Source: Archaeoglobales archaeon (GTDB lineage: Archaea > Halobacteriota > Archaeoglobi > Archaeoglobales > Archaeoglobaceae). Taken from it: a stretch of DNA of 64,000 bases. The first letter of the stretch is position 1, and the number at the start of each line of letters is the position of its first letter. This document shows positions 34,930 through 37,752 of the stretch, in pieces. The notes beneath the pieces were generated by a model. It searched no databases and was not told the origin of the DNA. It worked only from the letters and a program-made list of their open reading frames with translations. The stretch is taken from NCBI GenBank assembly GCA_030055525.1, contig JASFYJ010000006.1, positions 49,486 to 113,485 of the forward strand, given 5' to 3'. Made by a program: the position numbers and the translations under genes.

Positions 34930-35250
34930 TTACAACTCCTTCACTACCTCAAAATGAACCACCGTAAAGAATTCCGTATCCTTAACATCACCATATATCC
35001 TTCTTAGCGTCCTCACTAGATCTTCCTTACTTTCAAAGCCATCAAGTTTTGCATCCTCATCACTTATCTCTTTCAACCTCTTCACAACGACCTTCTTTAT
35101 CCTAGCGACTGCAAAGCTTTTCGAATTTTCAACTGTCAGTTCAACCAGCTGACCTACGGGGTAGCTCTTTATGCCTTTCCTAAGGGTTGTCTTCTTTTTA
35201 TTGCTGAGTATCAGAGGAACAAAATCTGGATCGAAGTTAATCTTCTCCAC
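34930..35250 (-). CDS. ASCH-domain protein
   Basis: The 106-residue protein starts FDPDFVPLILSNKKKTTLRKG and continues YPVGQLVELTVE and ARIKKVVVKRLKEIS, the small beta-barrel of the ASCH/PUA-like superfamily. Such proteins are thought to bind RNA; some hydrolyse N4-acetylcytidine. Its GTG start overlaps the end of tmcA, which makes N4-acetylcytidine in RNA. The shared substrate chemistry is suggestive but unproven. Confidence 0.82.
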   Translation of the reverse strand: MEKINFDPDFVPLILSNKKKTTLRKGIKSYPVGQLVELTVENSKSFAVARIKKVVVKRLKEISDEDAKLDGFESKEDLVRTLRRIYGDVKDTEFFTVVHFEVVKEL

Positions 35251-37543
35251 AGTACCACCTCCATATCTTTTTCACCGCAACCATCAAATTTCTATACTTT
35301 TTGAACCCGTCTCCCGGCAATTCCCGCCAGCTTTTTAGCTGCAGGCATTTCGCAACTAAGATGTACATTTCTTCATCGCTTAACTCAATCTTCTCTTTTC
35401 GCAGGAAATAGTACTTCACGAGGGGTCTGATTATGTCGGAGTTGTATTCGTAAAGGCTAACACCCTGGAAATACTTTCTCATCCTTTTTCTTTCAATTTT
35501 ACCTATCCTTGGAATTTCACACTCAACGTCTGTTTGAAGAGATTTTAGAAGTAGGATTGCTGTCTCTGTCTCAAGATCTCTCAATTCATCTGCCAGATAC
35601 TCTAAAAGCCTTCTTATGAACTCAGCATTTAGTTCGATTACAACGCTTTCTACATCCAATTTTAGAGCTTTCAAAACTATCACCGAATACTCTCCGCTGA
35701 TCTCATTCCTCTGCGGAGTGATATGGACCGGAACAAATCCATTTTTGATCCAAAAATTAAGTAGTTCGAATGAAACTCCAAATCCTGATCCTACCCACTC
35801 TAAATTTCTAGATTTGCTCCACTCGATCGTTTTCTGAAGAGCAAAACTTCCAACACCCAGATCCATCGCATCTGGATGTACGGCGATTCTTACTATTCTA
35901 ACTCCAGAAAGTTTTGGAAATTCGAGGTTCCAGAAGTGTTTTAATATCAGATCCGGAATTATCTGGCCCCTTGGCCTGTAGCCTTCTTCCTTTATCTTTT
36001 CGATCACTTCATCATTCATACTTCCCTCAATAGCTACATGCAAAGAGCAAACAACTTTTCCATTAACAAAAACAGCTAGTGGAATATGATTCGGCATATC
36101 GGATAAAATTACGAGGTCCGAGGGTCTGTTGCGGTAATGTGCAAGAACATATATACCAAAGAATTGTTTCAGCAGGCTATCATTTTCTATCAGTTCATCC
36201 TTTCCAATCTCTCGGAATTCAAAATTTTTGTTCTTTATCGCTTCTATATCCTCGCTGCTAAGCTCCTCCGGCTGAGCATTTAAGAGGAGAACATCGTAAA
36301 GCCAAGCCTCTATTGGATCCCCCTTTCCATACCTGATCGGTTCCTCAAGGTGAACTTTGGTTATATCCACGTTCTCATCCTTCTCAATATTTTTCAGGAA
36401 TCTGATCGCAAATCCGCGCCCATTACCTTCGTAGCCGTGGATCGTTGATGAGAATATAGCATAACGAACACCTTCAAATATCTTCCAGAGCACTGGCACT
36501 TCAATTGCTGCTGCTTCATCGACTATAATTATATCCGCAAAATCCTTTTCAACCATTGCTCTCCTTGGAACCGCATATTCTACTCGAGCATACTTGCTAT
36601 TGACTACTGTTATCATTCCGGAAGTTTCCTTGACATAGTAGTCTTCCAACCCTTGCCTTACCATGCCTTTAAGTAAGAACTTAAAATAAGTCTGAACCGA
36701 CTGCGGTGTTGGAGCTACTACCAGTATTCTGACGGGCCTCTTTAATATGTAATTCATCCTTGAGATCAGATAGGGTGTTGCTATCCCCAGTACAGCCGTT
36801 TTACCTCTTCCTCTATCAGCCGTAATAACGAAAGCCTTTCTTTGCTTTCCAGACTTTTCAAAAAATTTTTCAAACGCTTGTAAAACTCTTATTTGGTCTT
36901 GTGTTGCACAGAGCTTGTAGAGTTTCCTCTTTATTTCGATCTCCTGAGGTATACTAAGCTCCTCCCTTGAAACTACTCTGGGAGTGAAGGAGTAGCTTTT
37001 TATTACTTCCCTTTTATCTACGTCGAATATAATTATACCCTCGGCCTCAATCGTTTTCCTTATAAATCTCCTGTAAAATCTGCCAATCACATCATCTACT
37101 GTAAAAGGTTCGCTTACAAGTTCTTCATGCCATTTGCTTTTTAAATTTTGCCATTTTTCCAACTCCGGAGAAATTGCTATTATCATACCTCCCTCAGATA
37201 CGGTTTCGACGATGATACCAAGATCGTTAGGATGAAAACCCTCAGTAAGGTCGATTAGTAGGGAAGAGTAAGTCTCCCCGAGAACGTTCTGGGAGTCTTT
37301 GTAATGGATAAACTTACCCTGAAAGTACTTCTGGGCCATTTCAAGGAACTGGCTTCTTCCAGCAATTAGCAGATTTTCTTCTCCGCTTACCTCATCTCTG
37401 TATTTTTTATAGATCTTTCTTGCCAGTTTTATCACTTTCTCATCTGGATTTTTAGTGCACAGAATAACCATAAATCTGTGCCTGTTTGAAAGGGCCACCC
37501 TTGCAGCTTTAACAACTTCCGAAACTAGACTTCTAACTGTCAT
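35237..37543 (-). CDS. tmcA: TmcA, RNA cytidine N4-acetyltransferase
   Basis: ATG 37543, preceded by AGGTG, gives 768 residues. The N-terminal domain is followed by a RecD-like helicase domain with Walker A TADRGRGKTAVLG and Walker B IIVDEAAAIEVP, a GNAT acetyltransferase domain (RIAVHPDAMDLGVGSFAL) and a C-terminal tRNA-binding region. It acetylates cytidines in tRNA and, in hyperthermophiles, widely in other RNAs. The frame continues upstream through the antisense of tRNA-Trp, which gives a spurious 100-residue extension. Confidence 0.94.
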   Translation of the reverse strand: MTVRSLVSEVVKAARVALSNRHRFMVILCTKNPDEKVIKLARKIYKKYRDEVSGEENLLIAGRSQFLEMAQKYFQGKFIHYKDSQNVLGETYSSLLIDLTEGFHPNDLGIIVETVSEGGMIIAISPELEKWQNLKSKWHEELVSEPFTVDDVIGRFYRRFIRKTIEAEGIIIFDVDKREVIKSYSFTPRVVSREELSIPQEIEIKRKLYKLCATQDQIRVLQAFEKFFEKSGKQRKAFVITADRGRGKTAVLGIATPYLISRMNYILKRPVRILVVAPTPQSVQTYFKFLLKGMVRQGLEDYYVKETSGMITVVNSKYARVEYAVPRRAMVEKDFADIIIVDEAAAIEVPVLWKIFEGVRYAIFSSTIHGYEGNGRGFAIRFLKNIEKDENVDITKVHLEEPIRYGKGDPIEAWLYDVLLLNAQPEELSSEDIEAIKNKNFEFREIGKDELIENDSLLKQFFGIYVLAHYRNRPSDLVILSDMPNHIPLAVFVNGKVVCSLHVAIEGSMNDEVIEKIKEEGYRPRGQIIPDLILKHFWNLEFPKLSGVRIVRIAVHPDAMDLGVGSFALQKTIEWSKSRNLEWVGSGFGVSFELLNFWIKNGFVPVHITPQRNEISGEYSVIVLKALKLDVESVVIELNAEFIRRLLEYLADELRDLETETAILLLKSLQTDVECEIPRIGKIERKRMRKYFQGVSLYEYNSDIIRPLVKYYFLRKEKIELSDEEMYILVAKCLQLKSWRELPGDGFKKYRNLMVAVKKIWRWYCGED

Positions 37544-37586: not shown

Positions 37587-37593
37587 TTATATT
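37587..37593 (+). promoter_or_regulatory. TATA box of tRNA-Trp
   Basis: TTATATT is centred about 27 nt before the tRNA-Trp 5' end, the usual archaeal spacing. tmcA is divergent from the same 73-nt spacer. Confidence 0.5.
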
Positions 37594-37616: not shown

Positions 37617-37752
37617 GGGGTCGTGGCGTAGCCAGGAAGCGCGGCGGGCTCCAGCGGCGTGATGATAAACGGGTCTGCTGATGAGTGATGACCCGTTGGA
37701 GCACTGACCCGAAGAGACCCGCAAGTCGTGGGTTCAAATCCCACCGGCCCCA
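37617..37752 (+). tRNA. tRNA-Trp (anticodon CCA) with a 62-nt intron
   Basis: The acceptor is GGGGTCG/CGGCCCC with one T-G pair and discriminator A. The D stem is GCGT/GCGC, the anticodon stem GCGGG/CCCGC and the T arm GTGGG-TTCAAAT-CCCAC. The exons join to the loop CTCCAGA (anticodon CCA). An intron of about 62 nt (37655-37716) sits after position 37, the canonical archaeal site, leaving a 74-nt mature tRNA. Removal needs the archaeal splicing endonuclease. Confidence 0.94.
37655..37716 (+). ncRNA. Box C/D guide RNA within the tRNA-Trp intron
   Basis: The intron holds box C GTGATGA (37659-37665), box D' CTGA (37678-37681), box C' GTGATGA (37685-37691) and box D CTGA (37704-37707), with CGG/CCG at the ends able to pair. 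Upstream of D, TTGGAGC pairs with the exon GCTCCAG (one G-U) and places C34 at the fifth position. Upstream of D', CGGGTCT pairs with AGACCCG and places C39 at the fifth position. Pre-tRNA-Trp introns of Haloferax and other euryarchaea are known to guide 2'-O-methylation of C34 and U39. Here position 39 is C. Confidence 0.88.

Follow-up and report, generated by a model that had tools for sequence, protein, structure and literature searches.

The intron of the tRNA-Trp(CCA) gene in the window, by which we mean the whole 64-kb stretch of DNA analyzed, very probably acts as a dual box C/D guide of the sR3 family that directs fibrillarin to C34 and C39 of its own tRNA, probably on the unspliced precursor. 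The intron is placed between positions 37 and 38 of the tRNA, after G37, and scored 61.7 bits in cmscan with the sR3 model RF01133 (gathering score, 41), the match spanning model positions 1 to 55 of 55. A preliminary description of this DNA had named boxes C, D′, C′, and D in a 62-nt intron together with targets at C34 and C39 by the D+5 rule. All four boxes were located in this order and both guides fit the two targets (Table 1). The guide lengths had been given as 7 nt, which was confirmed for the D′ guide, whereas the D guide is longer and forms a duplex of 10 pairs (9 Watson-Crick and one G-U; 7/7 at +2 to +8). The locus is thus still best read as a tRNA gene whose intron encodes a dual box C/D guide directed at positions 34 and 39 of that tRNA, a mechanism already known from euryarchaeal tRNA-Trp introns.

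Table 1. Features of the tRNA-Trp locus, in positions of the window
Feature	Position	Strand	Remark
TmcA gene (tRNA-Met C34/cytidine acetyltransferase, Pfam)	35237-37543	-	adjoins the tRNA-Trp gene; divergent, gene start 73 bases away
TATA-like stretch TTATAT, possible archaeal promoter	37587-37592	+	25 bases 5′ of the tRNA start; found by eye
tRNA-Trp(CCA) gene	37617-37752	+	RF00005 match of 49.8 bits over the whole gene (cmscan)
tRNA-Trp exon 1	37617-37654	+	anticodon CCA at 37651-37653; C34 = 37651; G37 = 37654
D guide target	37648-37657	+	G31-G37 and intron +1 to +3; spans the 5′ splice junction
Predicted Cm34	37651		D+5 rule
Intron, dual-guide box C/D sRNA (sR3), 62 nt	37655-37716	+	RF01133 match at 37655-37709
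Box C, GTGATGA	37659-37665	+	
D′ guide CGGGTCT (+8 to +2)	37670-37676	+	+5 = G37673, facing C39; 7/7 pairs
Box D′, CTGA	37678-37681	+	
Box C′, GTGATGA	37685-37691	+	
D guide CCGTTGGAGC (+11 to +2)	37693-37702	+	+5 = G37699, facing C34
Box D, CTGA	37704-37707	+	
D′ guide target AGACCCG	37715-37721	+	last two intron bases and A38-G42; spans the 3′ splice junction
tRNA-Trp exon 2	37717-37752	+	RF00005 match and border analysis
Predicted Cm39	37718		D+5 rule

That an ordinary tRNA intron carries C/D-like words by mere chance has a negligible probability. Short boxes are common in sequence of mixed AT and GC content, but the ordered C-D′-C′-D pattern occurred a single time on both strands of the 64 kb, and a looser form of it likewise once. 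When the intron was shuffled 200,000 times with dinucleotides preserved, a guide to C34 arose in 860 shuffles, a guide to C39 in 609, and both together in none. These counts, the RF01133 score, and the conservation in relatives, 34 of 40 of which contained RF01133 matches, refute chance as an explanation.

The tRNA-Trp gene was missed by ARAGORN, which listed four other tRNAs. A bulge-helix-bulge (BHB) splice motif can be drawn in the precursor, with pairs 32:−3, 33:−4, and 35:−6 and pairs +2:−7 and +3:−8; C34 is unpaired opposite A(−5), the single C-A opposition of the motif. A scan of the locus with sigma-70 promoter and terminator models, which are unsuited to archaea, gave no match. A long open reading frame across the tRNA was rejected, being the mechanical extension of the TmcA reading frame.

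From the sequence, the intron would be included in the precursor transcript. By analogy to known C/D ribonucleoproteins (RNPs), L7Ae may then bind both C/D motifs and be joined by Nop5-fibrillarin. The D guide would pair across the border of exon 1 and intron and the D′ guide across that of intron and exon 2; the complementarity is visible in the sequence, and occupancy of these sites is presumed. Methyl transfer at the D+5 positions is predicted to yield Cm34 and Cm39, in cis or in trans, before the splicing endonuclease would cut the BHB motif and the intron would perhaps be ligated to a circle, as in Thermococcus and Haloferax. L7Ae-, Nop5-, and fibrillarin-family genes, as an archaeal C/D RNP requires, are all present in the same genome: the fibrillarin and Nop genes adjoin each other on contig C4, and either of two L7Ae-family genes is a candidate for L7Ae. 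A tRNA splicing endonuclease gene is present as well. Methylation of C34 and C39 in the organism of the window is a prediction.

In the phylum, RF01133 matches at E ≤ 1e-4 were obtained in 225 of 392 genomes (195 above the cut-off; 167 without a match). The model largely misses the introns of one order, that of genome G061, which we infer to be the haloarchaea; of its 78 genomes, 63 matched a pattern for the D-guide arrangement with box D CCGA, and 15 gave no match. Loci gathered by RF01133, by patterns requiring the D guide, or by anticodon-stem patterns were parsed in 276 of 357 cases and gave 211 distinct precursors. A D guide was found in 210 of the 211, which is not a frequency because the D guide was partly a condition of entry, and RF01133 itself favors a GGGUCU guide. 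One of the D-guide pattern searches returned at least 119 loci, of which 70 were parsed and the other 49 include bacterial chance matches and some Methanobrevibacter contigs. The unparsed loci also include 16 loci and 7 protein loci that were never intended for tRNA-Trp parsing; the pattern matches L224, L225, L226, and L232 did not parse as tRNA-Trp genes, and the expected tRNA-Trp regions L321, L322, L325, L326, and L330 lie outside the parsed set. All counts given below are of distinct precursors and not of independent changes on a tree. Second, weaker RF01133 matches in relatives were rejected as extra tRNA-Trp guides, since they are other C/D sRNAs with other guides, for example GGGCGA. 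RF01133 also weakly matches a conserved stand-alone C/D sRNA of relatives (loci L035-L040, L042-L044, L046, and L048-L050), which carries ATGGGCGA before D′ and a GAGAGTC-like sequence before D.

The preliminary description had regarded C39 with a matching guide as new. This claim fails, and within its well-known family the intron is nothing out of the ordinary: the sR3 consensus itself contains a C39 guide, and the combination of C39 and guide G, present in 129 of the 211 distinct precursors, outnumbers every other state. A review table entry for Cm39 also counters the novelty (2018, PMC6313347). The remaining precursors had U39 with guide A (50), U39 with guide G, i.e., a G-U pair (5), or no D′ guide (27); as the D′ search required pairing at the base-39 site, only the choice between A and G in the guide is informative in these counts. 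The idea that guide and base 39 have changed together was borne out as such. Among the precursors with a D′ guide, pair 31-39 is G-C where base 39 is C and A-U where it is U. All 50 U/A and all 5 U/G precursors belong to the G061 order; in four further precursors of this order (L223, L227, L228, and L300), C39 is combined with guide G. C39 thus predominates in the sample, and the Haloferax-type Um39 is probably derived.

By the criteria used, the 27 precursors without a D′ guide comprise 18 U39 precursors of the Methanobrevibacter type, 3 U39 precursors from one family of the G061 order, 2 from Woesearchaeota, and 4 with C39. This indicates that the position-39 guide is dispensable. The Methanobrevibacter-type precursors (L076 and 17 more, among the matches listed) kept the C34 guide and end their introns in A, U, or C; they are titled Methanobrevibacter, Methanosphaera, Candidatus Methanoflexus, Candidatus Methanovirga, or Methanobacteriaceae, and one only "archaeon." The G061-order family (L229, L230, and L231 from genomes G400, G413, and G392, each near 1 Mb) combines U39 and the intron tail AU with a D guide and no D′ guide. 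The four C39 cases are L166 (N at A38), L122 (spacer 1 nt longer), and L154 and L341 (under the threshold). In L122, the extra base precedes the D′ box, and under the D+5 rule the target would move by one position. The tRNA-Trp introns of the two Woesearchaeota loci, L191 (Woesearchaeota archaeon ARS1199) and L108 (Woesearchaeota archaeon CSBr16_197), measure 38 and 51 nt; in both, by eye, a TTGGAG guide and CTGA box come first, followed by a short stem-loop and a box-C-like (G)ATGA. With this permuted order, a C/D RNA would form only after circularization; TTGGAG could equally be just the splice helix, and the box C of L108 is poor.

Bases +3 and +2 of the D′ guide lie opposite the two final bases of the intron in the precursor, but opposite G37 and A36 once the tRNA is spliced. 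The preliminary description had noted that AGA occurs both at the intron end and as A36-G37-A38, and had concluded that the D′ guide could act before or after splicing. The identity is correct, and the sequence of the window by itself is silent on the order because both contexts read AG; in the relatives, by contrast, the guides follow the precursor. In all 184 precursors with a D′ guide, D′+3 forms a Watson-Crick pair (G:C, U:A, or A:U) with intron base −1, whereas against G37 of the spliced tRNA it gives 127 Watson-Crick pairs, 2 G-U pairs, and 55 mismatches. When the −1 bases were redealt in 2,000 shuffles, which ignored kinship, at most 126 of 184 paired. At the other junction, D+9 and intron +1 form 209 Watson-Crick pairs and 1 G-U pair in 210 precursors, D+10 pairs with intron +2 in 206/210, and D+11 with intron +3 in 202/210; D+9 pairs with A38 of the spliced tRNA in only 65/210. 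Sliding D+9 to +11 by one to three intron bases lowered the counts, except for +10 slid by one (183; here G follows G). Even within the genus of the window, the combination of intron +1 and guide +9 is C/G in 2 and T/A in 6 of the 8 distinct precursors. The bases used for these junction counts (intron +1 to +3, −1, and −2) are part of none of the D-guide search patterns, and −1 and −2 lie outside the RF01133 match. Duplexes across both splice junctions are therefore conserved, in 210 precursors for the D guide and in 184 for the D′ guide, and since D′+3 and D+9 to +11 pair with intron bases, both guides follow the precursor as it is before splicing. A comparable statement from fewer species, that both duplexes span an exon-intron junction and are conserved in euryarchaeotes, reportedly appears in the abstract of Clouet d'Orval et al. 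2001.

The reading in which only the D guide works, so that C34 is methylated and C39 is not, with the D′ guide being a relic or an aid to RNP folding, is unlikely. In its favor, no methyl group was detected at C39 in P. furiosus by mass spectrometry (PMC7668247), and the D guide is kept without a D′ guide in the 18 Methanobrevibacter-type precursors (among the matches listed) and in 3 others. Against it, a relic would be expected to drift, but D′+3 pairs with the intron tail in 184/184 precursors by way of three different base pairs, guide position +5 follows C39 and U39, and Um39 has been reported in Haloferax (PMC7994747, PMC11408192). Far less probable still is that the complementarity serves splicing, with a hairpin of guide and exon 1-intron border shaping the splice substrate and methylation being secondary. 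The minimum-energy fold of the precursor does pair the D guide with this border in cis (−60.9 kcal/mol, z = −2.62), and part of the covariation could serve splicing because, in the splice motif, intron bases +2 and +3 have −7 and −8 as their partners. Such a hairpin would nevertheless break the anticodon stem and the BHB motif that the endonuclease needs, and it leaves the fixed-distance boxes C, D′, C′, and D and the D+5 fit unexplained. Moreover, intron +1 sits in the BHB bulge and still covaries with guide +9.

Returning to the dual guide acting on the precursor, a more far-reaching interpretation has, in our estimate, an even chance of being right. Both guides would be selected to read the unspliced junctions, full methylation at 34 and 39 would be achieved only before splicing, and the intron would thus time its own removal. 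In the presumed haloarchaea, C39 would have changed to U39 via the G-U pair still present in five precursors, with intron −1 and guide +3 changing together, and the other U39 groups would have dropped the D′ guide.

The boxes and the C39 and C34 guides of the sR3 consensus (RF01133, class snoRNA CD-box) are those of the window intron, and outside them there are only scattered substitutions. A close counterpart, the intron of Haloferax volcanii tRNA-Trp (Clouet d'Orval 2001, Bortolin 2003, Singh 2004, and Joardar 2008, as cited in PMC7994747, PMC4090602, PMC11408192, and PMC7714728), guides Cm34 and Um39 (PMC7994747); like the window intron, it encodes guides to both position 34 and position 39 of the tRNA whose gene it interrupts. 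It differs in having U39 and a length of 103 nt (PMC7714728), compared to C39 and 62 nt here; introns of the G061 order mostly have CCGA or CAGA as box D′ and end in AU. The two Haloferax methylations were described as sequential and guided in trans (PMC5372725, PMC7994747), and deletion of the intron abolished both and left growth unaffected (PMC11408192). The 103-nt intron is circular (PMC7714728), and an abundant circular tRNA-Trp intron was found in Thermococcus kodakarensis (PMC9014305); Cm34 is present in tRNA-Trp of both species (PMC7668247).

Regarding Cm39, the 2018 review lists "Cm34 and Um39 (or Cm39)" and attributes their formation to the intron box C/D RNA together with L7Ae, Nop5, and archaeal fibrillarin (PMC6313347); among the matches listed for Cm39 in archaeal tRNA, it was the one paper seen to deal with this site. 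For P. furiosus tRNA-Trp, C32, C34, and C39 are predicted guide targets according to PMC7668247; in its mass spectrometry, the listed positions were undetected except for Cm34, Am38, and m22Gm26 in some tRNAs. Because the C39 methyl group was not detected there, lineages with C39 may fail to form Cm39. Guided methylation in the tRNAs of mesophilic archaea is considered unlikely in PMC7668247.

The Pyrococcus tRNA-Trp intron sRNA is named sR50 (PMC7994747). Two loci of the Thermococcus group, L109 and L139, have C39 with guide G as in the window; their introns end in AA and have U at guide position +3, in contrast to AG and guide C. The Methanobrevibacter-type introns agree with the window intron in the tRNA site and the D guide to C34, but have U39 and no 39 guide in place of C39 with a D′ guide. 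Taken alone, the locus of the window extends the sR3 family by a single intron. The comparison contributes a natural record of guide-target co-change at three sites, i.e., base 39 and the first and last intron bases. With it, both the question of whether methylation precedes splicing and the value of Nm39 become testable through the choice of species, from those with C39 to those in which U39 is accompanied by guide A, by guide G, or by no guide. This three-site covariation sharpens a question that the earlier work on these systems had framed.
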